From: Isoetes taiwanensis
Lineage: Eukaryota; Streptophyta; Lycopodiopsida; Isoetales; Isoetaceae
DNA: 64,000 nucleotides
Assembly (NCBI GenBank): GCA_021234155.1
Contig: JAJEKV010000053.1
Coordinates: 2,712,077-2,776,076, forward strand
Direction of reading: 5' to 3'
Shown: piece after piece, positions 9,001 through 64,000 of the stretch
Position numbering within the stretch: position 1 is the stretch's first letter
Layout of the letters: each line of letters begins with the position of its first letter
Made by a program: the position numbers and the translations under genes
Notes under the pieces: generated by a model
What the model saw: the letters and a program-made list of their open reading frames with translations, nothing else
What the model was told of the DNA's origin: nothing
The model's database searches: none

Positions 9001-11515
9001 AACTTAAAAGCCTATCGTGTCCTCCACTTTGGCTGCCGCCAAGCGATGGGATATAACTAGCTAGTCTAGCATGGACCTTAAACAAAAATAAAAAATACTG
9101 CGTGACTTCCTAAAAGGCGGGAGATATCCACGCCTACAAAGTGTGCATGTAAGGCAAAAGTTTTGCCCAGCGGATGTGTGGTGAGTTGGTATAGGCCTAG
9201 TAATGCCAAAATAAATGTGCATTTGGTCGGGGTTCAAACCTTGCCAATGTATGTTTATCTTTGGGAGTTAGTTCTTGGGGTTATCGATGATGATCCCGGC
9301 GTGGTTATCCCGGCGTGGTAGAACTTAAAAGCCTATCGTGTCCTCCACTTTGGCTGCCGCCAAAGGCGATGGGATATAACTAGCTAGTCTAGCATGGACC
9401 TTAAACAAAAATAAAAATACTTGTGACTTCCTAAAGCGGGAGATATCACACTTACAAAGTGTGCATGTAAGGCAAAAGTTTTGCCCAGCGGATGTGTGGT
9501 GAGTTGGTATAGGCCTAGTAATGCCAAAATAAATGTGCATTTGGTCAAGGGTTCAAACCTTGCCAATGTATGTTTATCTTTGGGAGTTGATTCTTGGGGT
9601 TATCACGATGATGATCCCGGCGTGGTAGAACTTAAAAGCCTATCACGTGTCCTCCACTTTGGTTGCCGCCAAAGGCGATGGGATATAACTAGCTAGTCTA
9701 GCATGGACCTTAAACAAAAATAAAAATACTAAGTGACTTCCCTAAAAGTGGAGATATCCACACCAAAAGTGTGCATGTAAGGCAAAAGTTTTGCCCAGCG
9801 GATGTGTGGTGAGTTGGTATAGGCCTAGTAATGCCAAAATAAATGTGCATTTGGTGGGGGGTTCAAACCTTGCCAATGTATGTTTATCTTTGGGAGTTAG
9901 TTCTTGGGGTTATCGATGATGATCCCGGCGTGGTAGAACTTAAAAACCTATCGTGTCCTCCACTTTGGTTTGCCCAAAAATAAAAAATACGATGGGATAT
10001 AACTAGCTAGTCTAGCATGGACCTTAAACAAAAATAAAAAAATACATTTGGTGACTTCCTAAAAGTTGGTTCTTGGGAGATATCCACCCGCCTACAAAGT
10101 GTGCATGTAAGGCAAAGTTTTGCCCAAAATAAAAATACGGATGTGTGGTGAGTTGGTATAGGCCTAGTAATGCCAAAATAAATGTGCATTTGGTCATGGG
10201 TTCAAACCTTGCCAATGTATGTTTATCTTTGGGGGAGTTAGTTCTTGGGGTTATCGATGATGATCCCCGGCGTGGTAGAACTTAAAAGCCTATCGTGTCC
10301 TCCACTTTGGGCTGCCCGCAAAGCGATGGGATATAACTAGCTAGTCTAGCATGGACCTTAAACAAAATAAAAATACTAAAGTGACTTCCTAAAAGGCGGG
10401 AGATATCCGCCTACAAAGTGTGCATGTAAGGCAAAAGTTTTGCCCAGCGGATGTGTGGTGAGTTGGTATAGGCCTAGTAATGCCAAAATAAATGTGCATT
10501 TGGTGGGGGGGTTCAAACCTTGCCAATGTATGTTTATCTTTGGGAGTTGATTCTTGGGGTTATCACGATGATGATCCCGGCGTGGTAGAACTTAAAAACC
10601 TATCGTGTCCTCCACTTTAGGCCCCCAAGGCGATGGGATATAACTAGCTAGTCTAGCATGGACCTTAAACAAAAATAAAAAAAATACTAGAGTGACTTCC
10701 TAAGGCGGGGAGATATCCACGCCTACAAAGTGTGCATGTAAGGCAAAAAAGTTTTGCCCAGCGGATGTGTGGTGAGTTGGTATAGGCCTAGTAATGCCAA
10801 AATAAATGTGCATTTGGTCGGGGGTTCAAACCTTGCCAATGTATGTTTATCTTTGGGAGTTGATTCTTGGGGTTATCGATGATGATCCCGACGTGGTAGA
10901 ACTTAAAAGCCTATCGTGTCCTCCACTTTGGCTGCCGCCAAAGCGAGTGGGATATAACTAGCTAGTCTAGCATGGACCTTAAACAAAAATAAAAAATACT
11001 GTGACTTCCTAAGGCGGAGATATCCACGCCTACAAAGTGTGCATGTAAGGCAAAAGTTTTTTTGCCCAACGGATGTGTGGTGAGTTGGTATAGGCCTAGT
11101 GATGCCAAAATAAATGTGCATTTGGTCAGGGGTTCAAACCTTGCCAATGTATGTTTATCTTTGGGAGTTGGTTACTGGGGTTATCGATGATGATCCCGGC
11201 GTGGTAGAACTTAAAAGCCTATCGTGTCCTCCACTTTAGGTAGCAAAAGCGATGGGATATAACTAGCTAGTCTAGCATGGACCTTAAACAAAAATAAAAA
11301 TACTAAGTGACTTCCTAAGGCGGGAGATATCCACGCCTACAAAGTATGCATGTAAGGCAAAGTTTTGCCCAGCGGATGTGTGGTGAGTTGGTATAGGCCT
11401 AAATGCCAAAAATAAATGTGCATTTGGTCAGGGGTTCAAACCTTGCCAATGTATGTTTATCTTTGGGAGTTGGTTCTTGGGGTTATCGATGATGATCCCC
11501 GGCGTGGTAGAACTT
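1..11515. repeat. Tandem satellite array, about 306-bp monomer
   Basis: About 37 head-to-tail monomers fill this stretch. The anchor TCTAGCATGG recurs at 8453, 8759, 9065, 9388, 9697, 10011, 10345, 10652, 10966 and 11271, so the usual spacing is 305-309 bp with a few longer units. Units right of about 8.4 kb are very alike; those to the left carry many more indels. Each monomer holds GTGAGTTGGTATAGG and, about 52 bp later, GGTTCAAACC, plus a GGCAAAAGTTTTGCC palindrome and AGGCG..CGCCT arms. The array ends abruptly at 11,515 in mid-monomer. The short reading frames in the array repeat with the monomer and shift with each indel, so I do not call them genes. The array runs off the left edge of the window. 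Confidence 0.97.
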
Positions 11516-46402: not shown

Positions 46403-46432
46403 AACAAAGTTTAAATTGAAACGCACTTATTT
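46403..46432 (+). repeat. Terminal inverted repeat of E2 (inner partner outside the window)
   Basis: Starts AACAAAGTTTAAATTG and continues ACGCACTTATTT; differs from the E1 termini by one or two bases. Subterminal GAATCTTTGAAAGATTCC follows, as in E1. Confidence 0.9.
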
Positions 46433-47080
46433 GCTCCAAACGCACTTCAAAAGGAATCTTTGAAAGATTCCCTAAAATTCCCTTAAAAAGTCCATTTTTA
46501 AGGTTTTTTCGTGACAGATGTAGGTACCCTTTTTGAGGGGTTGATTGAACATACCATCCATGCAAAAATTTTAAATAGCAATTTTCATCCTCCCAATTTA
46601 GAACAAAAAATAGTTACTTATATAAAGTGTAGCAAAAAGGGGGCAATAAAAAAAATAGCAAGGGTAGTAGAGTGACAAGGAAGTGATATATTCAAGGTTG
46701 TGAAAATTGTACAAAATTATGAACAAAATTGTAAAAAATATAGGACATTTTGACAAACCCTCATCACCTGCACTTTCTGTTCTTTACATGTTCGAGTCAT
46801 CGGACAAACTTACATTTTGCAGCAATATCAGGATGCATCTCATCCTCAGACTCATTTAATCCCTGATCACTTGAGCCTTCATCCTCAGCTTCACTCTCAA
46901 AACTGGATGTACTCGAACGATCTTCTTCCTCACTGTCTACAAGTGAGTCTTCATCATCATCTTTTTTGGCCACCTTTCTAGGTTGTTTGTCTAATCCACA
47001 TGCCGACCTTATTAAAGTTTGAGTGACCATACGTAACTTATTAGCGGCCGGTCGACAAAGTCATGTGCAAGAACCTTTAC

Positions 47081-49348
47081 TTTTTTTTTTTTTTTTTTTT
47101 TTTTGAAGAAACGGCAGAGATTGTATTAGTATATGAGAAAATTACATGATCATACATACAAAAAAACCATTGTAGGGATCAACCTTGCAATGGAAAAATG
47201 GTGATGGCTAGAGGACCACCACAAACCTTTTTTAGGGGAAGGATACCCGCTCAAAACAAAGGAAAAAGCACTTTTAAAAAATAGTTCGAGCATAGAGAAA
47301 GTCCAAAAGCTGGTCAACATTTTACGTAATATCGGGGACCCCTTCGAGATTGATTATAGCAAAGGCCTCCTCTCAGATGGACAAGCATCAGTCGTCAAGT
47401 TCATTCGCCCATAACCTCGTTGAATCCGGAGATACATAACCCAAGCATCACGAGCATCTTCATGAATTTTCAGCTTTGCTTGGAAGTAAGGTTTAATCTC
47501 CTGGATGAACCTCCGAAGATCTTCATCATTCAAATGGCCGGGTAAAGGTAATGCGGTGATAACCTCGCTTTTAAGCCGAGAAAAGTGCATCAATGGTTTC
47601 CAAAGGCGAGAGAGGAACAGTAGCAGGGATCAACCTCGCGGGCATGTCCTCCCTCATGGTGCCTCCTCAGCAGAAGCTCTGTCAAACAAAGAATCCACAT
47701 CATTAAAGAGCAAAGTGAAAAACTGAAAGAAACCATTGAAGTTTCCTAAGGAATCCCAGCGTCTGTTATAATTCAAGCCCTGCTTTGCCTTATGAGCCAT
47801 GGCAGCTTCAGCTAGGAGGACCTGAAAGGAAGCTTTGAGTTTATTCAGACTTGGGGCCGATCCAGAGATAGCAACTTCATTTCTATGTTTCCATATGGCC
47901 CAGCAAGAAAGGATCCGAATGGTTCCTTTGAAAGGGGAATTCTGATTTAAGTATTGTAGCAAGGAAGCCTCATCAATAGGAGTATGTTGCACCAGAGGTT
48001 GAATCCACTGCCAAAAAAGAGAAAGCCAAGGACAGAGGAAGACGTGTGAACTTGTTTCTGTGGAGCCACAGTCCATTGGACATAAATCAGAGATTTGATT
48101 GTTGAATTGGGCTCTGAAACCATTTGTTTTTAAACTTTTGTTCAACAGTAACCATCTAAAGAGCCCGATTTTGCTAGCACATTGAAGTTTCCACCCCTGT
48201 CTTATGATTTCAATAGCAAGATCCTGTTGGCAATTCCAAGCTCTGCTCACTTTTAATTGAGACCTGTCCAAAAGCATACTATAAATTTTAGAAACCTTAT
48301 ATGGACGCCCACCACAGGTCCAATTCTGAGCTTCATTTGCTTGTCCAACTGGGTTTCGGGTTAGAGTGGCATAGATGTTTCTGTTTGTATCCGTGTCAGG
48401 CAGGATTGAGGTGAGGTCTCCCCAATCTTTCCATTTGTCACCATTTTTCATGGAACCAATGGTATGCAGATCTGCATAGCACCATTCCTTATACTTAAGA
48501 GGATGTTTAAGGGCTAAACATCCCTCCTCTTCCTCGGTCAGGTCCTGATGCCAGAAGAAACTAAAATTATTACTAACAGAAGTCAAAGGCCGAGCTCTGA
48601 AGCAGGGAGATGCTTGGTTCCATGCAGAGAGAATTCTTCTCAAAATTTTGGATGTGCCTGGGGCAGCTTTAAGTTGAAAGAAAAGCCGAGTCGGGAAGAT
48701 GATGAGGGAGTGAAGGAGACCCTTCTAGAGATGTAACCCCGGCCGAAGACTTTTACCAATTTCAAAGGTCGAGAGAGGGGGCAAAGAGCATTAAAGATCT
48801 CCACTACTAGCTTTGCTTTGCGGGGCTTGTGCTTGGACAAAAAGGTCTTTTGCAGCCCGGACCTCCTTCTTTCCTAGGCGGTCAGACACTCCAGGAGACC
48901 ATTCTCGCACCTTGCGGATATAATCCCTCATGGCTGATTCTAGCTTCCTATAGGAGGATTTATCAGCAATGATGGCTGAAGAGAAAAAAATGTGTGTACT
49001 TGCAATCACACTATTAACAATCTCGACTCTTCCTGCAAGGGAAAGGGATTTAGGATACATTTGTATTTTTTTCCTCATCCTATTGACTATGGGATCCCAT
49101 AACCCTGCCAGATTCATATTAACTGCCAAAGGTAAGCCAAGTAATTTGGTGGCAGTTTTGTGACCTGTGACCTTTATTCCATGGATCTCGTCTTCCTCAG
49201 ATTGCAGGATAATTGTGCTTTTACTTTTATTCAAATGGACTCCTGATGCACCCCCAAAAAGATTTAGCATCTCCAGAAACTTTGGCAAACTGGAACCATC
49301 ATTTTGAAGGAAGGTAAAAGTATCATCTGCATACTGCATTATAGAGAA
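47081..49348 (-). mobile_element. 5'-truncated LINE (non-LTR retrotransposon)
   Basis: Read on the minus strand, it starts inside the reverse transcriptase just before the catalytic MQYADDTF motif (about 49,340) and runs through the RT thumb/connection region (LNLFGGASGVHLNKSKS, LLGLPLAVN, LSLAGRVEIVNSVI), a C-terminal zinc-binding domain (LCPMDCGSTETSSHVFLCPW), and a 3' region ending in a 24-base T-run (47,081-47,104, i.e. the A-tail). It is flanked by AAGAACCTTTAC at 47,069-47,080 and 49,349-49,360, a 12-bp target duplication. About 2.27 kb remains. Confidence 0.95.
47654..48643 (-). pseudogene. LINE C-terminal domain with zf-RVT
   Basis: A 329-codon open frame. The middle holds the plant-LINE zinc-binding region: CQ, KLQCASKIGLFRWLLLNKSL, LCPMDCG, SSHVFLCPW, then LFWQWI, with paired Cys and a His-Cys pair. 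It follows the RT-containing frame (to 48,791), with a frame break between 48,640 and 48,840. The protein would bind RNA or DNA during target-primed reverse transcription, but this copy lacks the endonuclease and most of RT. Confidence 0.85.
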
Positions 49349-49871
49349 AAGAACCTTTACTTCAGCTAGATCTATGACAGCAGTGTTTGCTTTGGACTTT
49401 GCTCTCTTTCCCACTCTTGTTCTTACCGTCTCCAAAGTATAACTCCCACTGAAAGCATTGGCAGCATTTGTTCTCATCCAGTGCACTTTTAATTGAGTGG
49501 GAATTCCATCCCCTCTTGTTACCTCCAGTACTTTAGCTAGCCAGAATGGCTTCCCAGATTCATCATTATCAGCTGGGACAGCTATGAGCATTCCTATCTG
49601 AATCTCTGAGACTGAACCAGATACTCGAGCAACTTGTTGTGCCGTGCGTCTGGGGCCAGTGTACATGACTCTGTCATCTTCATCTGAGCTAGCCATTATC
49701 TCTACATGTTCCTCTTGATTCTCAACTTGCACAGGGAGAGTTGGCCTAGATGGCCAGTTGAATGTAACTGGTCTTCGACCTTGTAATGAAGCTTGCAACA
49801 TGTCACGTTGCCGAGAAAAAAACTGAGGCCACCATAAAGCATCTACCTCCCCAAAGTGGTTAGAGCATGAC

Positions 49872-51497
49872 TGAAGCAAACCATCTCTTTGACACTGAGC
49901 ACGATTAAGAGGCCACCAAAAAATGAAGATGGGGTCAGAGTGCTTCAGGTCCGAAAGCTGTACGCGGCACATGTGGCTATCCTCAAGCAAAGAATGAGAA
50001 GGAATCCTCATGCCCATGTGTCGCCACTAGTTGTGATGGTAGACAGAAGTCAGTGCAACCAATTAAAAGATTATAGGAAGGCATATTTCGAAGATTACAC
50101 CTATTATGTTCTTGGAGGCACACATAGTTATAAAGCAAGAAAAGAACTTTCACAAGAAGAAAGCCGTAATGAAGTCTGGAAGAGCGTGGAAGCACATATC
50201 TACGTGGGGCTGACAGACGAAGAAGCAAAGGTCATTGCCGTGAGTCACAATCTCGACAATGACTTCAGATTAAAAATGAGCCTGATAGACAAGATCCGCT
50301 TTATGCACCGAGCGTGGAGTTCAAACAAATGCATGGAGAGGACTTTAAGAAGCAAAAGAACAAGCTCCAAGAGCTTCGAGAAGCTTGTGTCACATAGTGC
50401 TGCCTTAGTTACGATTCCGATAAGAAGCCTATAATGGCTGTAAAGCAGTACGACAATTACTTCCAGCTTGCCTTCCGAGATGGTCAAGTAAGTAAAACTT
50501 TTAATTATCTTTTAGTATGTTTAATGCGGAGTGAACTGTGCAGTGGCCTCAGACTGTATAAACTTATACCAACCTTGAAAGCAGGGCTCGGTATAAATTT
50601 ATACCATGCCTTGGCACGGTATAGACATGGTATAAATTTATACCGATACAACGCACGGTATAAATTTATACTGAGCCCTATACCGAACCTTGGCTCGGTA
50701 TAAATTTATACCGTGCTTTGGATCGGTATAAATTTATACCGTGCCTTGGCTCGGCATAAATTTAAGCCGAGCCCTGCTTTCAAGGTTAGGCTTTCAAGTT
50801 ACGCTACTCAACACTAAATTATTTGACTTCGACCATTAACAGGTTTGGGATCTTCAAGATGGTGAGCTTAAAGAACAAGCTAGCTCCACCGGAAGGAAAC
50901 CAAAAAAAAAATATTGAAGGAAAATAGAAAAACATGAGCATTGTACCCTGGACTCAGCTACAGGGTCTAAAAAGCAAAGAAATTTTCGTACGTCTCCTGG
51001 AGAAGGTTATGGCCAAGGAATTTACTCTGGATGAAATGGCCAAGGAAGCTAAAACGTAAGCCTTTTGTACTATGTTCTTTATTCCTCACTTCGTCTTACA
51101 ACCTCTTTCCTTTTGCAGTCAGAAAGACATTGTCACCTGCCAGTCGGAACTAATGAAGCAACTAAACTTAGAAGACTGGGAGGAGTGCAAGCTTCTTTAC
51201 CCAGTTTGTACGACAGACAGTACAATCAGGGAGCACGCAGTTAACTTCAGTGGCTGGGTAAGTTTTGCAGAAAACATGTTTTGTCTTTGTGCCTTTGTCT
51301 CACTGTTCTCTTACAGAACAAGAAGAAAGGGCTACCAGCAGGCTTTTTGAACCTGGTTCGTAGGGCCAAAGAGGAAAGGCAGAGACTTAAGGCCATTGAA
51401 CAGGGAAAAGAAGTTGGCCCCAGCAGTTTTGACACTAGCTATGAAAGATTTACAATGTTTGATCAGGACTGCTTGTACAAGGTTTCAGGGTGATTGC
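49872..51497 (+). pseudogene. ParB-methyltransferase gene of E2, first part
   Basis: Matches E1 exons 2 to 5 (minus strand) in inverse orientation. It begins inside exon 2 at the deletion junction and reads through a ParB-like domain (NPHAHVSPLVVMVDRSQ, YYVLGGTHSYKA, LTDEEAKVIAVSHNLDND; 50,002-50,270) without the 7-bp loss seen in E1, then shifts frame near 50,312. The intron at about 50,485-50,840 contains palindromes. Further exons: 50,843-51,055, 51,118-51,256 and 51,319-51,497. The last is broken by E1. The gene resumes at 60,264. Confidence 0.8.
50560..50770. repeat. Palindrome array in E2 intron
   Basis: Six copies of GGTATAAATTTATACC or near variants at about 50,590, 50,629, 50,657, 50,696, 50,725 and 50,753 (last is GGCATAAATTTAAGCC), with spacers of about 12-24 bp that are themselves nearly self-complementary. 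Confidence 0.9.
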
Positions 51498-51501
51498 ACT
51501 A
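51498..51501. repeat. Target site duplication ACTA (left) of E1
   Basis: ACTA precedes the left terminus and recurs at 60,260-60,263. The E1 methyltransferase exon gives the aligned uninterrupted sequence, so the borders are well fixed. Confidence 0.9.
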
Positions 51502-51531
51502 AACAAGGTTTAAAATGAAACGCACTTATTT
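51502..51531 (+). repeat. Left terminal inverted repeat of E1
   Basis: Thirty bases, one mismatch to the inverse of 60,230-60,259. Directly inside it, ACGCACTT..AAGTGCGTT makes a small hairpin. Confidence 0.93.
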
Positions 51532-51979
51532 AAGAAGTGCGTTTGAAAGATTCCTTTATAAAAATTGGAAACTTGAAAAAAACAGACAAAATAGGGAGCA
51601 AAATAGATTGTTAAGCAATTAGCATTCGAAATACCCCCAAAAAAGCAACATTTTTGAAGCCTTTTCATTTTTTAAAGAGGAGAAAAAAAAAAAAGCTTGT
51701 TTTGAGGAGGGAGACATTAAATTTAAAAGCTGAATAAGTATTTATTGCTGAAAATAGAAGGAAATATAGTTTGTCTTTTTGCAAGCTTAATATAAGTACT
51801 AAGAAAATTAAACATAGGGAAGACAAAGAGTGTGAAATCATGGAGCAAGAAAGAGTTGCTCTAATTAAGCACTGTTGAAGAGACAAAGCTTTCAGATTAA
51901 AAATCATCATCAAAATATGTTATATTTCTTAGCACATAGTTTACAATGAAAGTTAGTTTGTAATCTTGACTGTATAAAT

Positions 51980-54900
51980 TTATACAACTGGTGGAGGAGG
52001 TGGTTCTTCCCAGTCCACAGGACTCTCGTACCCCTTAGGATCTGACTCTTGTGAGGGTATGATAGCAGAGATGCCTGCTTCTGATTCCAATGGCACAGGT
52101 ACAGGCTGTTTCTCTGGCTCGGGCACCACAGGCTCTAAGTCGACGAACTCCACCTCCTCATCTTTTCTTCCTGTAAGTGGAGGCTGGATTTCTGTGTAAG
52201 TGCCCTTAGCATCGCTAGCACCGTTCTTTGCTCCCAGTTCCTCGTTTTCATCAGGAAAGGATTCACAAGAGCTTATCCCGGTCCCCGATGAAACTTACTT
52301 TATTTGGGTCTATGTCGATCGAGAGGCGACATTGCGGCCCTCGCTTAAGGGCGCAAATCTGGCACATGGTGCCCGATCCGAGAAAAGGCATCTAAGATCC
52401 GGTCTCGAGGCGAAAACCATCAGATCAAATTATTAATAAGCCCATTTGTGGCTTGATAATGGGACACCACGGCGCCTTGTCATTTGTGGGTCTCTTAATT
52501 TCTGCGTAACAATTTGGGAACCGAAATGCATTGCGGGGAGGAGTCTTCTCATTCTGCGTGTTGAAATGAACCATGGTTTTTGGTGTCCGCTACCGTGTAA
52601 AACCTATATGAAAATGCTCAAAACAACTCACTAAGCGCGGACCACCACCATGACCCTTGACGTTTGTTTTAAGCCTGCCAAGCAAAGCAGCAATAAAAAA
52701 TTAGTAGAAAGAAAACAAGGAAAATAAGTTACCCCAGTGGTGTGGCGGTATAAACTTATACCACGGTTTCCTTGCTGTATAAATTTATACCACGCGGCAA
52801 GCCAGTATAAATTTATCTCTGAACATTGCTAATTTGTATAAATTTATACCACGGTTGTTCCAGCCTTTAAAATTCAAACCTTAAGACAGATGTGGTATAA
52901 ATTTATACCTAGGAGTTAATGTAAAAAAAAAAAGCGTTAAATGTAAAGCTTACCAAACGCAGTTTTCGAAGCCAGCGTTGCAGACAGCTCCCATAGGTTT
53001 AAGCACCGACATCGTCTGCAGGTCGGAATGAAAAATAATGACCCTCCAGTTTTCAGATGTCGTGACTTCTTTTAGGCCATCCAAGAAAGAACGGACTTGC
53101 ACGTGAGTGAAAGCCTCCTCGTCAAAAGCGCTATCCTTGATTTTGAAGCCATAAGGAATATCTGCAATGCATAATGTAAAATTTTGTTTGTCTAAAAGAG
53201 TCCCCAATCTTGTGCAGTCACCCTGAACAACCCTGTACTGGACGTCCTGATTAAATGTAGTAAATCTCTCGTAAGTAGTGTCAAAACTGGAAGTGGCGAC
53301 CTCTTTACCCTGTTCAATTGCCTTAAGCCTTTGCCTCTCCTCCTTGGCCCTACGAACCAGGTTTAAGAATCCAGTTGGTAGCCCCTTCTTCTTGTTCTGT
53401 AAGAATAATGTGAGACAAAGGCACATAGACAGAACATATTTTATGCAAAACCTACCCAGCCACTGAAGTTAACAGCGTGCTCTCTGATGATACTATCTGT
53501 GGTGCAACTTGGGTACAAAAGCTTGCACTCCTCCCAGTCCTCTAGGTTGAGCTGCTTCATTAACTCAGCCTGGCAGGTGACAATATCTTTTTGACTGCAA
53601 AGAAAATAATATTGTAAGACAAAAAAAGGTAGAAACAACACGGCAAAGCAAGTGGGGCTTACGTCTTAGCTTCCTTAGCCATCTCGTCCAATGTGAATTC
53701 TTTGGCAACTACTTTTTCCAACAGGCGAACAAATATTTCTTTGCTTTTGAGACCCTGTAACTGCGTCCAGGGTACAATGCTCATATTTTTTTGTTTTGAT
53801 TCACCACCTTTCTTTGGTTTCTTTCCTGCGGCGCTAGCTTGTTCTTTAAGCTCATTATCCTCGAACATACAGAAAATCCTCTCTTGAAGATCCCACACCT
53901 GAAAATGGTCAGACGAAGTTTAGTGTTGATTGGCGTAAGAGAAAGGACATTGGATCGAGTCGGCGGTATAAATTTATCTGTGTGCGGTCGCAGGTATAAA
54001 TTTATCGCGTGCCGTCGCGGTATAAATTTATACCGCGTGCTCGGCCGCAGATAAATTTATACCCCGGAGGGCACCGGTACAAATTTAGACCGCGACCGAA
54101 TGGTATAAATTTATACCGGCCAGACGCGGTATAAATTTATCCCGCGACACGGCGCAGGTATAAATTTATATGCGGGGCCCGACGCGGTATAAATTTATAC
54201 CGTGACTCGTCACTTGTAACCACGCTAAACAAACTACAAAAGACAGAAAGAAAGCATTTACTCACTTGACCATCTCTAAATGCGAGCTGAAAGTAGTTAT
54301 CGTATTGTTTTACTGCCATAATGGGCTTCTTATCAGAGTCATAACTGAGGCAGCACTCTGTCACGCAGGCTTCTCGAAGTTCCTGCAGCTTGTTCTTTTG
54401 CTTTTTAAAATCCTCTCCATGCGCTTGTTTAAATTCCACGTACTCACGGTGCATGAAGCGGATCTTGTCTATCAAACTCATCTTCAATCTAAAGTCATTG
54501 TCGAGATTATGACTCACGGCAATGACTTTTGCTTCTTCATCTGTTACACCCACGTAGATGTGCGCTTCCACACTCTTCCACACTTCGTTACGGCTTTCTT
54601 CCTTTGCTAGTTCTTTTCTTGCCTTGTAACTATGTGTGCCACCAAGAACGTAGTATGTGTAATCTTCAAAGTCAGCCTTCTTATAATCTTTTAGTTGGTT
54701 GCACTGACTCCTGTCCACCATAACAACTAGTGGCGACACATGGGCATGAGGATTCCTTCTCATTCTTTGTTAGCCACATGTGCCGCATACAGCTTCCGGA
54801 CCTGTAGCACTCTAACCCCATCTTCATTTTTAGGTGGCCTCTTAATAGTGCTCAATGTCAAAGATATAGTTTGCTTAAGCAGTTTAGTTTCATTCACCCG

Positions 54901-55686
54901 CTTAAGAATAGCACTTGATTTATCTGTGGGCTTCACAACAATATCTGCACCAGGAGCCTTCTGAAGTGCTTCTGCTGACTCCTCTATAGTCAATTGCTTT
55001 GTGGTTCTAGACCTTTTTTTTGTGGGAGCCTGTGTATCTACTACCAGGGAATGCTTCCTACCCTTTCCCTTTGGTATTACTATATCCTCCTCTTCCTCTT
55101 CTTCTTCTACTTCCTCAATTTTTTCTTCCTCATCGTTAGGAGTGGGGTACCACAGACCTTTGACCAACACCTTGTCTTCGCAAAGCACCACTGACATCAA
55201 AATGTCCACCAGGATCCCCCCTATCTGAATGTCTGCGGGGTTAAGTTAGGAGGATGACGGTATAAATTTATACGCAAGCCACTAAGAATAACTTACATAG
55301 CCGCCCTTGTAATTTTCAGATATGTACTCATGCACGTCTTTGGGCTTGCACATGCTTAATCTAAGCATTTTACTGTTAAGAACATAAAAGACTTCCCCTT
55401 TGTCATGCATGCACTTCATTAAAATTTCATCTTCGTTTTCTGTAGTAGCCAGGTTTATAATTTCGCCGGCAGGATAATAATCATCGGCCTTGTACTTGCC
55501 CTTCCCTGACTGATGGCACAAGTACAGGTACGCCTCAGTTGGTTTGCTCTCTCTTGCTCCCCTGTGGACGTACCACGTCTGGTCTGTTAGTTCGTACGTC
55601 TGTGGCTCTATTGGTGCAGCCTTTGAAGATTGGCCTTTCTGTACAAATTTTATCCTTGGGCCGGAACTGTGCGTTAAAAAACCCAT
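51980..55686 (-). CDS. ParB-like domain fused to beta-class amino-DNA methyltransferase, six exons
   Basis: Exons, from 5' to 3': 55,686-55,297; 55,232-54,266; 53,898-53,663; 53,594-53,456; 53,396-52,954; 52,674-51,980, all with GT/AG borders. Exon 1 is unrecognised (YVHRGARESK, YYPAGEIINL). Exon 2 has an acidic/basic linker, then a ParB-like fold (YYVLGGTHSYKA, LTDEEAKVIAVSHNLDND). Exon 5 has the methyltransferase motif IV region (VVQGDCTRLGTLL, ADIPYGF). Exon 6 has the AdoMet-binding region near its middle (ILDAF, then IDIDPNKVSFIGD) and an acidic Pro-rich end. Catalytic motif before AdoMet motif is the beta order, typical of N4-cytosine or N6-adenine enzymes. A 7-bp loss near 54,768 and breaks in exon 6 interrupt it. 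The stop codon lies in a palindrome. Transfer from a phage or bacterial ParB-methylase is an inference. Confidence 0.75.
52745..52925. repeat. Palindrome array in E1 methyltransferase intron 5
   Basis: Five copies of the palindrome or variants; the equivalent E2 intron (62,885-63,050) has its own version with different spacers. Confidence 0.9.
53960..54215. repeat. Palindrome array in E1 methyltransferase intron 2
   Basis: About nine copies of the 16-bp palindrome or close variants at 25-30-bp spacing; spacers are GC-rich and share CGCG/GTCG text with local inverse complementarity. Confidence 0.92.
54266..54763 (-). CDS. ParB-like domain segment of the E1 methyltransferase gene
   Basis: Continuous open frame in exon 2 from MRRNPHAHVSP. 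It shows an early hydrophobic strand (PLVVMVDRSQ), the GG-x-H-S-Y-KA segment where ParB/Srx proteins carry their GG-x-R/H motif, a strand (SVEAHIYVGL), and D-EEA followed by SHNLDND where ParB has EEA..NL-R. Then a long Lys/Gln-rich helix and FQLAFRDGQ at the splice donor. In ParB proteins this fold binds CTP or acts as a nuclease; whether that holds here cannot be told from sequence alone. Confidence 0.75.
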
Positions 55687-56707
55687 TTTTTAAGTAAGAA
55701 AGCGAAACATTTTTCGACTTTTTGACACACAAAAACAGTAAAAACAGAGGCTAGAAGGGCATAAAATCCACAATAAATTAACACTTCTTTTGTCTTATTT
55801 AAGCTTAAAACACAACAATGTTACTAAAATATTAAGGTTCAGGTCCATATTTTAAGCGCTAGACACCAATTTTCCGAAACTATTTTGAAACGGTATAAAT
55901 TTATATAAGCCGAGCAAAGCGGTATAAATTTATCTTGAGAGATGGCTCGGATCGATATAAATTTAGACGCCTTGTGCTCGAGCGGTATAAATTTATACCG
56001 TTCCAGAACACATTCGGTATAAATTTATACCGCAAGTGTTCTTGAACGGTAAAAATTTAGACCGCTCGTGTATCCAATGCAGATAAATTTATACCGCTCA
56101 AGAACACTAGCGGTATAAATTTATACACGAATGTGTTCGAACGGTATAAATTTATACCGCCGAAAGCACAAAAGTGCGTATAAATTTATACCGATCCAGA
56201 GCCATCTCGGTATAAATTTATACCGTGGGGGCTTACACTCTAACAGATTAAAACAAAATGGAAACTAATACGATGCGGAAAGTAGACTTACGTGGCCATG
56301 ACCGTATGAACTAAGCGTATAGACGCGTTAGGAGAGCAAATAAGAAGGGGTATATAAATTTTTTGGACCATGACATGGCCTATCTCGACTCGAATTCATC
56401 TTTGCGTATATGGAAAATAGGGTGGCGGTCTTGCGGGCTTAAGTACCCCATATATCTAAGTGCCGCTAAGTATAAGCGTTTCTCCATAAAGTTTCTAATA
56501 CAAGTGTCTGTGAGTTTTAGGTATAAATTTATACGTTTTACGTTCTATGTTGCCCTCCTCTGTAAAAAATTTATACCATCTTATAAATTTTTTTCTTTTT
56601 TTTTTTTTCCCTTTCTGTATAAATTTATACCATCTATATAAATTTATACCGTCTGTTCTTACGTGTAGTATAAATTTATACACGATTATGCCGCTAACTT
56701 TCTGAGT
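55687..56707. promoter_or_regulatory. Divergent promoter region of E1 with palindrome array
   Basis: Lies between the two divergent genes. From about 55,890 to 56,225 there are about twelve palindromes at about 28-30-bp spacing, and more at 56,520-56,680. Several spacers are inverses of each other (for example GTTCTTGAACGG and GTGTTCGAACGG forms). No TATA box was singled out because the palindrome core TATAAAT itself resembles one. A role as a shared control or transposase-binding site is inference. Confidence 0.6.
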
Positions 56708-59700
56708 ATGGCTCGAGAGAAAAGAACCGCAGAGCCTCCAACTCCTGTTCGCAGGCTCCCTCCTGCAATGACTTTCACACCTCCTCAACAGACACCAGGA
56801 AGTAGTCACGAATATTCTAGCTCCGACATTCCAACACCCAGCTCTGTTGAGCTTACTCCAGCACGACCACCTCGGCTTCCACCACCAGTTCAATTTACTC
56901 CACCACACCACCTCCCTCACGAGCGTCGTTTGCCCCCACCAATGCGTTTTACTCCACCACAGGCTAGAGAGCTCGGACTACCTACTCCAGTTCATTTTAG
57001 TACATTAAGCCCATAGTCCACAAGTAGGCTCCCTCCACGGAGGCAAATCACACCAACTCCATCCATTTCGCTAAATGGTACTACAACAAGTGGGAGCAGT
57101 CAGCGACACGCAACTCCTGTGTTCTACGACACTTCAGGAGCTGGTCAACTACGTCACCAACCTCGATTACTTTTTCCCAGAGAGAGGGAAAGCACCTCCC
57201 CCCAGGACTTGACCACATCAAACCTCTCAGCATCTACAAGCACACCTCATGTTGATCTTTCAGACGAAGAAACACCTCATGTTGATGTCTCAAACGAGGA
57301 CCTACCAAAGCCACAAGACTCCATGTTCGAATTCAAAGCCCCTGCAAGTAAGAATCTTAAGCGTAACTTACACAAGAAAGCATGTATACAACCGTTAGAA
57401 GAAAGAAACTCATGGACGAGGCTCACTTGCGGGCAACACATACAAAGCACTGTTGTTCTCAACGTTGTTTGCTTAAGATTGGACTAAAGGAATTGAGGTT
57501 GATTAAATGATAGTTCTGAGTTCAATGACTCGCTAGACCAAAGGGGCTACTTAGCCTTCAATATTAGGCCGATGATGGTGAGAAGTTTACTTACACATTG
57601 GTGGCCACACCACAATCAAAACGACCTTCAAATTGATTCATGCTTTAGGCGTGACGACTTGACCGCTGAAGAAAAGGCTTGACAAGAATCCGGGCATCAA
57701 TGACTCTTGCCATTCGGGGAGGCATAACCGAAATTCATGCCCTTCAATGTGTTTTCTGGATGGAAGGTTTCTTTAAGGAGTCTTGTGAGAAACTCCCTAA
57801 CAGCCCTATATACCACTTGAGTGACAATTTCCGCGAAACAAGAAGTCTACGATAATTATAAGGAGATGTGTGTTGAGGCTTGGAGAACGGCTTTATGCTG
57901 CTACTCTTACTTTCTTGTGCTCGGAAAAAGAGTTTTCTCGGCGTGTCCATTCCTAGAAAGCATAGGATGTCTGTTTGTGCTACATGCTCAATTAAAAGCT
58001 TCGAGACAAAATGCAAGGACACTTCACACACTAAAAGTAAGCTTCGGGGACGTGTTCTTGCCTAGTTCTACTTAAAAGTAGGTTCTTTCCTAAACATATT
58101 TTCATTTTAGGATGCATTGAAGGAGAAACCCGAACAAACCACAGAGAGAACAACAATCTTTGGAAAGGAGAAAATTGACAAAACATAGGAAGAAAAGACC
58201 GGAACAACCACTCAACTACATATCGGTTGTTATTGATGGAATGGACGGAAGAAGACCACCCTACCACATTTTGTCAATGTGCCTAAGGATCTTCTTGAAG
58301 AAGATTTCATACATCCGCATGTTGTTGGTGCTATGGTATTTAATGGAAAACTCTCTTGCAAGGCATTTTTGAATTATCCAAATATTCATGCTGATCCAAA
58401 TCTCACTATCACAATATTGAATAAGCTTCTTTCCAATCTAGAACATATACCCACCGTTCTCAGATCTTGACTAGACAACACGACAAGGGAAAATAAGAAT
58501 CAGTTGTTTGCTTACATTGCTATGCTAGTAGTAGAAACAAATCTTCAAGAAGGTGAAGATTGGTTTCACCGCTTGTTGGTCATACACACGATCAAATTGA
58601 TCGGATGTTCAAGTGGGTTCTCTAAGCGTCTTGCTTTCGAAAAAAGCTCTCGACCTACCAAAGAATGATTGAGGTTATCCAAGATTCCTACAATCCTCGT
58701 CCGGACATCGAGTTATTGGAAGAAACTTATGATTTCAAAGAATGGATTTTTCTGAGAGATCAACTGGTCACCGTGCTATTGAGCCCTTGAGAAACATTAC
58801 ATTTCAGCATCGGATCAAAATTTCACTTGAAGATGGCAAGGCCATCTTACAAGGAAAGAAATATGCCACATCCTTGCGATGGCGACCAAAGTATTATTCA
58901 ATTCATTAGCACCATCCCCAATACTAGTTCCATGCTCTCTGCCCGAAAAAATGCCTCTAAAAAGCTTGAAAGAAATCACAAAGAGTAAAAAGGAGGGAAG
59001 AGCATTTGACTCAAACAAATCATTGGATTATATTGAGACAAGTATTGGTCATGCTCTAACCACTTTGGGGGAGGCGAGATGCTTTATGGTGGCCTCAGTT
59101 TTTTTCTCGACAGCGTGACATGTTGCAAGCTTCATTACAAGGTCGAAGAACGGTTACATTCAAGCGGCCATCTAGGCAAACTCTCCACTGTGCAAGTTGA
59201 GAATCAAGAGGAACATGTAGAGATATTGGCTAGCTCGGATGAAGATAATGAGTCATGTACAGCGGCCCCAGGCATACGGCACAACAAGTTGCTAGAGTAT
59301 CTGGTTCGGTCCGGAGATTGAAAAAGGAATGCTCATAGCTGTCCCAGTGATAATGATGAATCTGGGGAAGCCATTCGGCTAGCTAAAGTACTGGAGGTAA
59401 CAAGAGAGGATGGAATTCCCACTCAACTAAAGGTGCACTGGATGAGAACAAATGCTGCCAGTGCTTTTAGTGGGAGTTATACTTTGGAGATGGTAAAAAC
59501 AGGAGTGGGAAAGAGAGCAAAGTCAAAGCAAAGCAACTTTGTCATAGATCTAGCCAAGTAAAGGTTCTTGCATATGGCTTTGTTACATTGCTTTGCTAAT
59601 AAGTTACGTATGGTCACTCAAACTTTAATAAGGTCGGCATGTGGATTAGACAAACAACCTAGAAAGGTGGCAAAAAAAGATGATGATGAAGACTCACTTG

Positions 59701-59870
59701 TAGACAGTGAGGAAGAAGATCGTTCGAGTACATCCGATCTTTGAGAGTGAAGCCGGGATGAAGGCTCAAGTGATCGGGGGATTAAATGAGTCTGAGGATG
59801 AGATGCATTCTGATCTTCTTTCGCAAAATGTAAGTTTGTCCGATGACTTCGAACATGTAAAGAACGAAAG
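56708..59870 (+). CDS. E1 plus-strand protein: Pro-rich N-terminus, DUF7869-like domain, reader-like domain, acidic tail
   Basis: Begins at 56,708 with Arg/Pro repeats (LPPAMTFTPP, LPPPVQFTPP, LPPPMRFTPP; about 57,015 has a stop), continues at 57,119-57,487 (SDEETPHVDVSNED), then exons in changing frames: GYLAFNIRPMM (about 57,550), AEEKAW (about 57,670), a helical segment with EAWRTALCCYSYF (57,870). At 58,250-58,760 it has VPKDLLEEDFIHPHVVGAM, LDNTTRENKN and GHTHDQID, a pattern I associate with DUF7869, probably an RNase H-like fold. Near 59,330 comes GMLIAV, then KVHWMRTNA, and a KKDDDEDS acidic tail. Candidate mobilising enzyme of E1 by elimination. Multiple breaks; exon borders only partly resolved. 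Confidence 0.6.
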
Positions 59871-60229
59871 TCACGAGTGATGAGTGTTTGTCAAAATGTC
59901 CTATATTTTTGACAATTTTGTTCATAATTTTGTACAATTTTCACAACCTTGAATATATCACTTCTTTGTCACTCTACTACCCTTGCTATTTTTTTTATTG
60001 CCCCATTTTTTCTACACTTTATAATAGTAACTATTTTTTGTTCTAGTTTAGGAGGATGAAAATTGCTATTTAAAATTTTTGCACGAAAGTTATGTTCAAT
60101 CAACCCCTCAAAAATGGTACCTAAATTACTTAAATTGTCACACCTGTCACAAAAAAATCTTAAAAATGGACTTTTTAAAGGGAATTTTAGGGAATCTTTC
60201 AAAGATTCCTTTTGAAGTGTGTTTCCAGC

Positions 60230-60259
60230 AAATAAGTGCGTTTCATTTTAAACTTTGTT
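60230..60259 (-). repeat. Right terminal inverted repeat of E1
   Basis: Inverse of the left repeat except for one base; ends TTTTAAACTTTGTT, followed by ACTA. Confidence 0.93.
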
Positions 60260-60263
60260 ACTA

Positions 60264-60414
60264 GGCTGGGGACACTTTTGGACAAGCAAAATTTTACTTT
60301 GTGCATAGCAGATATGCCATACGGCTTCAAAATTAAAGATAGCACCTTCGATGATGAAGCCTTCACGCACGTGCAAGTTCGTGCTTTTTTGGACGGGCTA
60401 AAGGATATCACGAT
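60264..60414 (+). pseudogene. ParB-methyltransferase gene of E2, second part (motif IV exon)
   Basis: Directly continues the exon interrupted at 51,497. It contains LGTLLDKQNFTLCIADMPYGF; the E1 copy has ADIPYGF at the same place, so the motif IV catalytic loop is conserved in both copies. It then reads FLDGLKDI before being cut by the hAT-like element. Confidence 0.85.
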
Positions 60415-61464
60415 CAGGGATCGGTTCAATACTGTATACGTTTTATACTCAATACGTATTATTCGAATAATACGGCACTAATTTGAAATATAATACATCA
60501 AAAATATGGCAAAAAAAAATTCCGGCGTCGGAAATTTTTTGGCGTAAAACAAAACCGGTTTAAACTACGCTGAAACTCTTCGGCGATAGCTTAAACCTTG
60601 TTTCCCTTATTTTTACGTAAAGCGAAACTGAAGGTTTAAACTACAAAACTTCCATAGCATAGCGAAGGTTCGGCATCTCAGCTCTCCTCTGCACTTGCTA
60701 TACGTGATTCTGATCCTTCTGCTGCATGTGGTCGCTTTGCTCCACTTCAGTGGGCTGATTTAGCTGAAGATAATACTGTCTTGTCGAAGGACCAAGTTAC
60801 ATCTTCAAACTCTCCTGAGATTCCGGTAATTATATCGGATTTGACGCCATTACAGATTGAGTGCGGTTAGACTCTTAAGCAGACCTTATCTCCTTTTACT
60901 TATCTAGTATGGAGTAAGCACATGGTGTCGCAGGCTCGTGTTCCAGCAGCATCTTCTTGTGTTTACACAACTAGATGAGAAATATTCATTTTGTACTTAT
61001 TCTTGCTCATTAATAAACTTTTTGTTCGTCCTTCAAAAAAAATAAAAATAAAAAATAAAAAAAAATTGGCATTTCCTTTTTTTTTTTTTATTTTCCTTGT
61101 AAAGCAGTTATTTAAACTTCTGCTGAAGAAGATTTTGCTTACGCGAAAAAAAAAAATTCAAAAAAAAAGATTTGAATTTCGGCGTTTAAACCCAAAAACT
61201 TTTTTTCGTTTAGCAAAAGCTGAAGGTTTTGCTTATCACGATCTTCGGTTGCTTATCGCGATTTTTTTTTTTTTTTTAAGTTTCGCGTACGCTTACGCGA
61301 AAAAAGTTTCGCGTAAGCGAAACTAAAGGTTTCGCTTACGCAAAAAAAAATTTTTCCGGCCGGTAGGTTAAAAATACAAAAAATACATATTTAACCTAAA
61401 AATACGTATTTTTGGACTTTATACATCTGGAAAAATAATTTTGTACGTACAGAACCTATCCCTG
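60415..61464 (+). mobile_element. Non-autonomous hAT-like element with embedded LINE scrap
   Basis: Ends CAGGGATCGGTTC and its inverse GAACCTATCCCTG (12 of 13 matching). The flanks are ATCACGAT (60,407-60,414) and GTCACGAT (61,465-61,472), an 8-bp duplication with one difference. CAGGG termini plus 8 bp are the hAT rule. No transposase is present. The middle has repeated TTCGCTTACGCGAAA hairpins and, at about 60,670-61,075, a sequence with an A-rich end (FAPLQWADLAED in one frame) that looks like a small LINE fragment. Confidence 0.8.
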
Positions 61465-61472
61465 GTCACGAT

Positions 61473-61580
61473 ATCAGCAAACTGGAGGGTTATCATTTTT
61501 CATTCCGACCTGCAGACGATGTCGGTGCTTAAACCTATGGGAGCGGTCTGTAACGCCGGCTTCGAAAACTGCGTTTGGTA
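61473..61580 (+). pseudogene. ParB-methyltransferase gene of E2, third part
   Basis: Resumes after the hAT-like element and covers NWRVI-like text to SVLKPMGAVCNAGFENCVW, ending at GTTTG|GTAAGC, the same donor as E1 exon 5. Confidence 0.85.
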
Positions 61581-61596
61581 AGCTTTAAATTTATTA

Positions 61597-62856
61597 GCAT
61601 TCTGCAGGATGGAGCATCTTCTCCTGCGGCGCTGTTGTTGCAGTCTCTTCGCCATTGTGTGGCATTCGGGAAGCCGTCTGTGCATGTGGAGTTGCCTTTG
61701 GCACTGTTGTATGGTCTCTGGCCTTTCCCACATGCATCCCCTTTTCTCACAGGAGTGTTGCGGGCTTGGGATCATGTGTGTGTGCTCTTCTTGCTAGATT
61801 ATGCCTCAGTTTATCACCACTCTTCTCCTTTCTTGTGGGTTCCTCTACCCCCTGCGCACTTGCCCGTGCATGCTTTCCTTGGCGCGAGCCCGTTGGGCGG
61901 ACTCTTTGTGCTCACCTTGGAGGATTGGTATTGGGGTGGTCAGCTAGCCGTGGGAGTTCTTTTGAGCTGGCTTTACGCTGAGGCGTGGCCAGGGCTATCA
62001 CGGGAACCGCGTGGCGGTATTCAACTTCACATACCTATAGTCCCTCGGGGATGATGTGGTGGTGCGGGTTTGGAAGGTTCATCCTGATGTTGTGTCTTCT
62101 TGCTTTGTGCGGTCTTCTTCACCAGGGTCTGGCCATTCATGACACCACTTGCCCCCTTCCAGCAAGCGGTCTCTGCGACTTCGGGGTTCGATGGCCTTCG
62201 GTTTGGGCGTGGACATGGAGCTCACTTCCCCACCAAAGTTAGGGTGCTTACGTGGCGGGGTGATGCCTGCATTGTATCGGGGGTGAATGCCCTTGTGAGT
62301 CGGTTTAGGCGGGTGTGAGCCCTCTCGCCCTTGTTGTGGCCTTCATCATGAGGCGTGGGCATTATGCGGTTTTATGCCCTCACTTGCCCGGTGCACAGGG
62401 GATTGGGTTAGGGCTCTCTGTTTGAATTGAGATTGACTAGCCGGCGATTCTTTTGCTTCATATTATCACGGTGCTTGGCAGCTCTTGCGGCGAAAGAAAC
62501 CTACATCTGTCGCGTGGCTTGGTTGGTGTAGCTGATTTGGAAGCGGCGGTTGTGGATCTTTTAGGGGATTCGGCGACTGCGGCCTCTCGATTCTAGACTC
62601 ATGTACAAGCTATTTCAAAGCTTTCTGGTGTTCCCGGGAGTAGTAGAGCGGAAGTTTGCCATTTGGCGGGACTTCTTGGGTGTTGTAGATGGTGATGGTC
62701 GGTTTGTACAGCAATAGAGTTGCAGTTTTTCTGTGAGTTTGTTGTGGAGTGTCGAGGTATCGCTGTCTCTTTGGGGCAGTTCTCCTTCCTCCTCACTTGC
62801 TTTGTAACATTACCATTCTTTTAATATATTGATGACACAGTTCTTCAAAAAAAAAA
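61597..62856 (+). mobile_element. GC-rich retroposon with A-tail in an E2 intron
   Basis: Absent from the corresponding E1 intron. Much richer in G and C than its surroundings. It ends with an A-run (62,847-62,856) preceded by CTTTTAATATATTGATGACA, and the flanks resemble each other (AAATTTATTAGC left, AAATTTTATTGC right), which suggests an imperfect target duplication. Overlapping open frames exist on the plus strand (61,575-62,054, 61,985-62,242) but none shows a known motif. A LINE 3' end or a processed transcript copy are the two options. Confidence 0.6.
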
Positions 62857-62884
62857 TTTTATTGCTTTTCTATTTACTGTAACT

Positions 62885-63060
62885 CCATGGTATAAATTTA
62901 TACCACAGTTGCCTTAAGGTTTAAATTCATACGGATGGATCAATCGTGGTATAAGTTTACACAGCAAAGCAACCTTCGTATAAATTCATACGACATGGCA
63001 CCGTGGTATAAATTTATACAGCAAGGCAACCGTGGTATAAATTTATACCTCCACACCACT
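62885..63060. repeat. Palindrome array in E2 methyltransferase intron
   Basis: About six copies or degenerate copies of the 16-bp palindrome, several in the form GTATAAATTCATAC, at the same intron position as 52,745-52,925 in E1. Confidence 0.9.
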
Positions 63061-63121
63061 GGGCTAACTTATTTTTATTGTTTTCTTCCTACTAATTTTT
63101 AATTGATGTATTGTTTGGCAG

Positions 63122-63787
63122 GCTAAAAACGAACGTCAAGGGTCATGGTGGTGGTCCGCGCTTAGTGAGCTGTTTTGAGCATTTCCATATAGGTTTTTAC
63201 AGCACGGACGCCAAAAAGACCATGGCTCATTTCAATATACAGAATGAGAAGATCCCTCCCTGCAATGCTTTTTCAAGACCGGCTGTTTACGCAAAAGTTA
63301 AGAGACCCACGAGACAAAGGCGTTGTGGTGTCCCATTATCGAAAACCACGAGGCTTATTAATAACTTAATACGATGGTTTTCGCCCGACCGGATTTTGGA
63401 TGCTTTTTTCGAACAGGCACCACGGCAATTTATTTATATAAAGCGGTGGGCTATAATGTTGTCTCTGTCGACATACACCCTAATAAAATAAGTTTCATCA
63501 GGACCAGGATAAGCTCTTGTGAATCCTTTCCTGATGAAAACGAGGAACCGGGAGCAAAGAACGGTGCTGGCGATGTTAAAGGCACTTATACAGAAATCTA
63601 GCCTCCTATTACGGGGAGAAAAGACGAGGAGGTGGAGTTTGTCGACCTGGAGCCTGTGCCGGAGAAACTGCCTGCGCCAATAGGATTGGAATCAGAAGTA
63701 GGCGTCTCCGCTGTTGTGTCCTCGCAAGAGCCAGATCCTAAGGGGTACGAGAGTCCTGTGGACTGGGAAGAGCCACCTCCCGTATGA
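63122..63787 (+). pseudogene. ParB-methyltransferase gene of E2, last exon with AdoMet-binding motif
   Basis: Begins after a CAG acceptor with LKTNVKGHGGGPRLVS, equivalent to E1 exon 6. Read over a frame change at about 63,400, it gives NLIRWFSPDRILD, then a F-x-TGTTAIYLYKA segment and VVSVDIHPNK, which fits methyltransferase motif I (D-x-F-x-GTG-T) and the acidic end of the next strand. It is clearer here than in E1. The acidic tail ends with DWEEPPPV and a TGA at 63,785, again within a palindrome variant. Confidence 0.8.
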
Positions 63788-64000
63788 GTTTATACAGACA
63801 GAATTATAAACTTCTTTCATTGTAAACTATGTGCTAAGAATTATAATATATTTTGATGAAAATTTTTAAACTGAAAGCTTTGTCTCTTCAACAATGCTTA
63901 ATTAGAACAACTCTTTCTTGCTCCATGATTTCACACTCTTTGTCTTTCATATGTTTGATTTTATTAGTACTTATATTAAGCTTGCAAAAAGACAAACTAT
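63788..64000. other. E2 subterminal region
   Basis: Inverse of E1 51,770-51,975 with small differences; no gene expected. Confidence 0.85.

Follow-up and report, generated by a model that had tools for sequence, protein, structure and literature searches.

A 64,000-nucleotide stretch of the Isoetes taiwanensis genome (contig JAJEKV010000053.1, positions 2712077-2776076; the window) contains a transposon, E1, with a gene resembling bacterial DNA methyltransferases next to a gene of the DUF7869 family. The question raised by this locus is whether such a gene is a regular part of the element and what it might act on. In each of the three families sampled, the methyltransferase gene was found to belong to the element as a regular component. 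New here is that each family repeats its own palindrome outside the coding matches. We suggest, with a little better than even confidence, a DUF7869 transposase combined with a ParB-methyltransferase that binds the palindromes of its own family and methylates its own element for anti-silencing or self-marking.

Borders and families of the element

E1 is a DNA transposon with terminal inverted repeats (TIRs) and a 4-bp target-site duplication (TSD). Recomputing the borders gave the same values as a preliminary description made from the sequence (30-bp TIRs, ACTA duplication). The TIR match stopped sharply, with 29 of 30 positions identical and then only 1 of 15 beyond. The features of E1 are listed by position in the window.

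51502-60259, no strand: whole transposon, 8,758 bp, ParB-methyltransferase gene on the left (minus) and DUF7869 gene on the right (plus); from computed TIRs and TSD and 12 sister copies
51502-51531, plus: left TIR, AACAAGGTTTAAAATGAAACGCACTTATTT
60230-60259, minus: right TIR, 29/30 against the left; from the genome-wide count of the 30-bp end
51498-51501, no strand: left TSD, ACTA
60260-60263, no strand: right TSD, ACTA
51977-55686, minus: ParB-methyltransferase gene, degenerate; from GT/AG sites, stops and sister copies
~55297-55686, minus: N-terminal domain exon (hand-read, as are the next four)
~54266-55224, minus: linker and ParB fold exon
~53663-53898 and ~53456-53594, minus: helical middle exons
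~52954-53396, minus: motif IV exon, ADIPYGF
~51977-52674, minus: motif I region exon (FSGSGTT in sister copies)
56708-59850, plus: DUF7869 gene (probable transposase), degenerate; end approximate, intron ~58050-58112 hand-read

The genome searched comprised 1,658,258,908 bases in 1110 contigs; LEAFY SAM-domain matches in 4 of 8 candidates agree with a plant of the lineage that carries LEAFY. The 30-bp end of E1, with up to 3 mismatches, occurred 1104 times on the plus strand and 1089 times on the minus strand (2,193 in total; reversed-pattern control 0). A protein search with the motif IV exon of the methyltransferase gave 2400 candidates, the best 150 of which were scored; the top ones had 91-98% identity and were mostly free of stops. 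Twelve further copies were fetched on this exon. Both ends were found in 8 of the 12 in a first scan, with an exact 4-bp duplication in 7 of the 8 and TTCC/TTCT in the eighth. The search for genomic copies sharing the E1 termini, as proposed in the preliminary description, was thus successful, and ends, duplications and copies agree on a TIR DNA transposon.

Eight loci (L013-L020) were chosen for paired hits or long DUF7869 frames and constitute family B, E1 belonging to family A. Family B has the TIR AACAAGGTTGCAAATTAAACGGGAG and the TSDs AATG, GTTT, AATT and TTAA (L013, L014, L016 and L020) and ATAT (L017); its ends were counted 899 and 913 times in the genome (control 0). Four loci (L024-L027) were chosen on DUF7869 alone. 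Three of them, L024-L026, form family C, with ends AACAAGGTGACC... and TSD GACC from L024, and L027 is a family-A-like element with TSD AAGT. For L017, L024 and L027, the search that yielded the TSD was set to require one. Both ends were not found for L001, L004, L007, L012, L015, L018, L019, L025 and L026. The three families have related ends, 4-bp duplications and the same gene pair in each.

The transposon is a successful one of the cut-and-paste type, Sola-like in its TIRs and 4-bp TSD, but the E1 copy is broken, with frameshifts and many stops in its genes. Neither this decay nor the palindromes described below had been noted in the preliminary description. A 4-bp TSD is stated for Sola2 (PMC3627910; here and below, cited papers stand for those parts of their text that were available), and this TSD length together with TIRs was found in E1, in a second copy in the window, E2, and in sister copies. 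Lanisha, described as CMCT-like and with mostly 5'-CA ends, was dropped as superfamily. Bacterial contamination was ruled out by the GT/AG introns, the TIR/TSD borders and the very many copies.

The gene pair and its proteins

The best 150 candidates were scored in genome searches with DUF7869 (9908 first-look candidates) and PF01555 (1444), and all of them were above the cut-off. The 9908 first-look candidates, of which those 150 were scored, suggest that DUF7869 proteins may account for much of the repetitive DNA in this genome. Between the two lists, 24 pairs lay no more than 15 kb apart, against 0.41 expected under uniform placement. The DUF7869 list combined with the best 150 of the family-A exon list gave 15 further pairs, again against 0.41 expected. 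The orientation was divergent in 22 of the 24 and in all 15 (37/39 pairs).

Among the 24 transposon loci, DUF7869 was matched in 23 and ParB plus methyltransferase in 23. Because the methyltransferase had been the ground for choosing 12 of these loci, and both genes together that for six others (L013-L018), the informative counts are those of loci taken on one gene. DUF7869 was present in 11 of the 12 loci taken on the methyltransferase exon alone, and ParB and methyltransferase pieces were present in 5 of the 6 taken on DUF7869 alone (L019, L020, L024-L027). At L012, the stretch that was fetched contained no DUF7869 match, but it may end too early. L019 had no ParB or methyltransferase match; the N-terminal domain is kept there, with other reading frames after it. 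Chance capture of the methyltransferase was rejected, since each of the three families sampled has the gene together with DUF7869, as the preliminary description had anticipated in calling it a standing part.

The within-family medians of the ratio of nonsynonymous to synonymous substitution rates (dN/dS) were below 1 in every family. In family A (3 pairs each), the methyltransferase exons had 0.21 and 0.08, ParB had 0.08 and DUF7869 had 0.25. Family B gave, for pairs with dS below 1.5, 0.08 (1 pair) and 0.16 (4 pairs) for the methyltransferase exons, 0.23 (2 pairs) for ParB and 0.08 (10 pairs) for DUF7869. The values of family C (1 pair each) were 0.29 and 0.57, 0.17 and 0.25, respectively. 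Most other family-B methyltransferase/ParB pairs and nearly all between-family pairs were saturated. These ratios support, more weakly, purifying selection on both genes and do not rank the genes by constraint. The claim that the family-B methyltransferase is as constrained as DUF7869 failed a recount, with 2/10 and 9/10 usable pairs for the methyltransferase exons, 3/10 for ParB and 10/10 for DUF7869.

That the methyltransferase is a captured passenger of no use to the element was already disfavoured and is highly improbable, as the gene occurs in all three families with the same exon pieces and with its catalytic motifs kept, and dN/dS medians stay below 1 in every family. Such a passenger would nevertheless fit the value of 0.57 for one family-C exon (one pair), and giant transposons often carry accessory genes whose use is unknown (PMC12477816).

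The protein consists of an N-terminal domain, a charged linker, a ParB fold (GG[NT]HS[FY]KAR...), a helical middle, the motif IV exon (AD[IL]PYGF) and the motif I exon (DAFSGSGTT), and the same exon pieces recur in the other families. The frame of the spliced E1 gene is lost in exon 2, and most of the downstream part is misread. Sister-copy pieces matched PF01555 (N6_N4_Mtase) at 1.4e-15 (58.3 bits against a gathering cut-off of 26.7); at L013 the match spanned positions 3-219 of the 221 of the profile, read through 2 stops. The motif IV exon (D[IL]PYGF) lies ahead of the motif I exon (FSGSGTT), the hallmark of the beta class. The best solved relative by sequence was CcrM (1.1e-9), followed by MboIIA and RsrI, with PvuII at 0.005. 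CcrM, MboIIA and RsrI are adenine enzymes, and PvuII is an N4-cytosine enzyme. Because motif IV has the form D-x-P-Y and the nearest solved relatives are adenine enzymes, N6-adenine is a better guess for the target than N4-cytosine, though not a proof.

In Pfam scans of the submitted pieces there was no match to ParBc (PF02195) up to E=1, and all matches of the ParB part were below cut-off (IgA0_D2, DUF6551 and others). PHROG 723, a ParB-like partition protein, was matched only at 0.016. A structure model was built from 9 native sequences; its predicted local distance difference test score (pLDDT) was mostly 70-89 in the ParB region, with a whole-model mean of 52.8. Ranks 1-12 in VIA-align were ParB, Noc, KorB or PadC, with Z 9.8-7.5 (ranks 1-9 above 8) and 94-129 residues aligned. 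The top match was a Myxococcus ParB (Z 9.8, 94 residues, 3.2 A), sulfiredoxin ranked after the ParB/Noc/PadC/KorB chains, and two more ParB entries had Z 4.8 and 3.1. Foldseek gave at best E 0.029 (PDB) and 4.5e-4 (BFVD ParB). A helical domain comes after the ParB fold in the model.

By its predicted structure, this region has the ParB N-terminal fold; because PF02195 was not matched, the fold is claimed and not the Pfam family. The gene product is, judged from sequence and model, a ParB-fold and beta-class DNA amino-methyltransferase with predicted catalysis. The earlier assignment as a ParB-like/beta-class methyltransferase thus stands for PF01555 and for the predicted ParB-like fold, and falls for the PF02195 profile. 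Phage records matching the query numbered 397, none of which covers 80% of it; among the 20 matches listed, none starts before query residue 257, which leaves the ParB part uncovered. The N-terminal domain appeared hypervariable in family B (40-52% identity to L013 among L013-L020; mean identity 61% against 81-94% for the other pieces) and is perhaps host-facing, whereas ParB, methyltransferase, DUF7869 and the palindrome stay conserved in that family.

The second gene had been described as DUF7869-like, and sister-copy pieces matched PF25273 (DUF7869) at 6.2e-54; the E1 region has 51, 43 and 49 stops in its three frames. Three conserved motifs of the protein, VIDGMD/VVDGMD, LQLDN/IQLDN and GHTHDQID, are read by us as a putative D/D/E-type triad, and the protein is most likely an RNase H-type transposase, with weaker support than the methyltransferase assignment. 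Because the structure model was poor, this reading was drawn only from the predicted strand order and the D/D/E-like motifs. An RNase H fold by structure was given up, as the model had a pLDDT of 44.2 and VIA-align gave only weak Tudor/BAH-like matches (Z at most 5.7). No solved-structure sequence matched DUF7869 up to E=1, and the name was not found in open-licence papers. The C-terminus (about 85 residues of the L019:1049-3172 model) was predicted as a small beta barrel, weakly Tudor/BAH-like (Z at most 5.7), and might be a chromatin reader.

Palindromes of the families and the second copy

E1 contains 20 exact copies of the palindrome TATAAATTTATA (16-bp form GGTATAAATTTATACC), 19 of them outside exons and one over a stop codon.

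55894-56222: seven, in the divergent intergenic region
56522-56680: four, just upstream of the DUF7869 gene start
54021-54199: four, in the intron after the ParB exon
52778-52907: three, in the intron between the two methyltransferase exons
55261-55272: one, in the first intron of the methyltransferase gene
51973-51984: one, overlapping the methyltransferase stop codon

The arrangement of the last copy, with the stop codon inside the palindrome, was also seen at the gene end of L003.

Every perfect 12-bp palindrome was counted in 25 loci, with 20 Markov resamples per locus. One palindrome stood out in each locus: TATAAATTTATA with 15-38 copies in family A, TATTCCGGAATA with 5-7 in family B and TATGCGCGCATA with 5-11 in family C. 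The top count of any palindrome in the resamples was 1 or 2. All three have a constant TAT...ATA around a 6-bp core, which is AAATTT in A, TCCGGA in B and GCGCGC in C. The cores segregated completely over the 25 loci (A 314/0/0, B 0/50/0, C 0/0/26). The sites extend symmetrically to GGTATAAATTTATACC in A, TGTATTCCGGAATACA in B and at least CTATGCGCGCATAG in C. Exact sites in the genome numbered 7218 (A), 3392 (B) and 1551 (C), with 0 for each reversed-pattern control.

The loci L024-L027 were first assigned to families with the palindromes in view, and relatedness was re-tested by the proteins alone. Whether judged by DUF7869, by either methyltransferase exon or by ParB, every locus had a nearest protein neighbour of its own palindrome type (24 of 24 in each of the four comparisons). 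None of 374 sites (24 loci, L012 excluded) overlapped a coding match. Of these sites, 152 were in gaps from one piece of the methyltransferase gene to the next, and 206 were in the interval that separates the matched part of one gene from that of the other; this interval takes in the 5' part of the DUF7869 gene, where there was no match. The other 16 lay outside.

These counts bear on the alternative that it is the DUF7869 transposase that binds the palindromes, while the methyltransferase acts at other places or has no sequence preference. Repeated motifs are bound by transposases of other superfamilies, many DNA transposons have subterminal repeats that serve as transposase sites, and relatedness by DUF7869 matches the palindrome type equally well (24/24). 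However, the sites are mostly in introns and between the genes and not next to the TIRs, and 16 of the 374 fall beyond the span of the genes. Palindromes of 16 bp are the classical targets of ParB proteins, and the model places a helical domain after the ParB fold. We consider transposase binding unlikely.

TATA boxes were rejected as an explanation, as the palindromes of families B and C contain none. Helical phasing was also dropped: gaps below 70 bp were 40-43 bp in B and C (with one gap of 66 bp in B) against 19-68 bp in A. The gaps in family A peak at 28, 30 and 32 bp.

E2 (46403-64000 in the window, extending to 64262; no strand) is an opposite-facing copy of the same family with TSD TAAT at both ends. 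E1 is inserted in its methyltransferase gene. The two independent copies of the preliminary description are thus correct, although they are nested, E2 being a separate insertion. Its palindromes are at the following positions.

50592-50738: five palindromes of E2
62891-63047: three more

The 46.4 kb of the window ahead of E2 contained no palindrome. By eye, E2 carries a LINE-like (long interspersed nuclear element) insert at ~47070-49357 with a minus-strand frame, a poly(A) tail and GTAAAGGTTCTT flanking both sides, and two further inserts at ~60410-61450 and ~61600-62860. An internal deletion at ~49870, also by eye, fuses the 3' part of the DUF7869 gene to methyltransferase exon 2. A satellite array occupies 1-5373 and 6678-11514 of the window (about 33 diverged copies, units of ~305-309 bp).

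Proposed working and known systems

In the working that we propose, the DUF7869 transposase would act on the AACAAGG... ends, and the ParB-methyltransferase would bind the palindromes of its family (14-16 bp), both those in the introns of its own gene and those in the promoter region that the two genes share. Once bound, it would methylate the DNA there, adenine N6 being likelier than cytosine N4. Methylation might mark or open the element against host silencing and may also tune transcription of both genes. Catalysis, palindrome binding by the ParB-methyltransferase and the anti-silencing outcome are all inferred. Self-recognition by this protein is favoured because the constant TAT/ATA with a family-varying core resembles ParB-parS and Noc sites, and the arrangement resembles VANC targets.

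The methyltransferase could instead be a brake or timing switch, methylation of promoter or ends limiting transcription or transposition or tying it to replication, as Dam methylation limits IS10 and couples it to replication. The clustering of sites between the two genes would suit such a switch, and self-regulation would likewise keep the gene under purifying selection. Against this, family A and B ends are very many in the genome, arrays in several introns exceed the need of a promoter switch, and the closest studied parallel, VANC, is an anti-silencing protein. The brake is rated improbable.

Several points weigh against self-recognition by the ParB-methyltransferase. The palindrome type tracks DUF7869 as closely as it tracks the ParB-methyltransferase, so that the sites are not tied to either protein and a host factor is possible. 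The ParB fold comes without the PF02195 match, the DUF7869 model is poor, and motif IV and the nearest solved relatives are a weak basis for choosing N6-methyladenine (6mA) over N4-methylcytosine (4mC). The selection estimates come from few unsaturated pairs, and the ends of family C are known from one copy, L024. The evidence as a whole consists of sequence analysis and structure models.

Gene pairs of this kind are already known, because a ParB-like and N4C/N6A methyltransferase gene opposite the transposase is reported in Sola1-1_Ec32 of Ectocarpus, and similar ParB-methyltransferases are cited there for green and red algal transposons, from Iyer et al. 2011 and Petroll et al. 2025 (PMC12477816). 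The preliminary claim that such an element was undescribed is therefore not supported, and that of a new type is better put as a new and richer form of an element already known in kind. Sola1-1_Ec32 is likewise a DNA transposon with the methyltransferase gene on the opposite strand; it differs in being brown-algal and 21.5 kb long, and the likeness is drawn from gene content. Its authors already suggested self-binding and epigenetic modification of the element, with no target site named in the text available, and the string "palindrom" is absent from the main text (PMC12477816). Among the matches listed from the open-licence literature, no land-plant report of a ParB-methyltransferase transposon was found, nor one of a family series with family-specific palindromes. 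The Isoetes genome offers candidate targets, and because three families each have their own palindrome and thousands of exact sites, the idea of self-modification is directly testable.

Mobile elements with DNA-modifying enzymes include fungal transposons with TET/JBP (PMC12730594) and retrotransposons with DNMT (PMC5890265); both enzymes and elements are different, and no family-specific target arrays were found described in the available text. Other recorded cases are the adenine methyltransferases of DIRS retroelements and the methyltransferases carried by viral Mariner elements. The N4CMT of bdelloid rotifers is a bacterial amino-methyltransferase working on eukaryotic DNA, but it belongs to the host and not to a transposon; it is fused to a chromodomain and contributes to the silencing of transposons (PMC8885841).

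VANC of the Arabidopsis VANDAL elements is an element-encoded sequence-specific protein, and its targets are short motifs that form tandem arrays in upstream regions and introns and differ from one related family to the next (PMC5735166); family-specific arrays in noncoding parts are found here as well. VANC differs in having DUF1985/DUF287, which were absent from Pfam scans of the submitted pieces, so that the likeness does not extend to the protein. It also differs in causing methylation loss with no methyltransferase described, and its quoted motif, YAGTATTAY, is not a 16-bp palindrome (PMC5735166).

The constant outer TAT/ATA with a family-changing core is a likeness to bacterial ParB-parS and Noc sites. 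The stronger form of our proposal, to which we give somewhat less than an even chance, is a ParB-parS-like self-recognition in the plant nucleus, in which specificity diversifies by family, the palindromes are read and 6mA or 4mC is written on the own element as anti-silencing of the writer type. If true, the genome would contain thousands of amino-methylated islands and a natural series of palindrome-specific DNA methylases. It would then be the second sequence-specific self-recognition in plant transposons beside VANC, built from parts of bacterial partition proteins and using a mark other than 5-methylcytosine.

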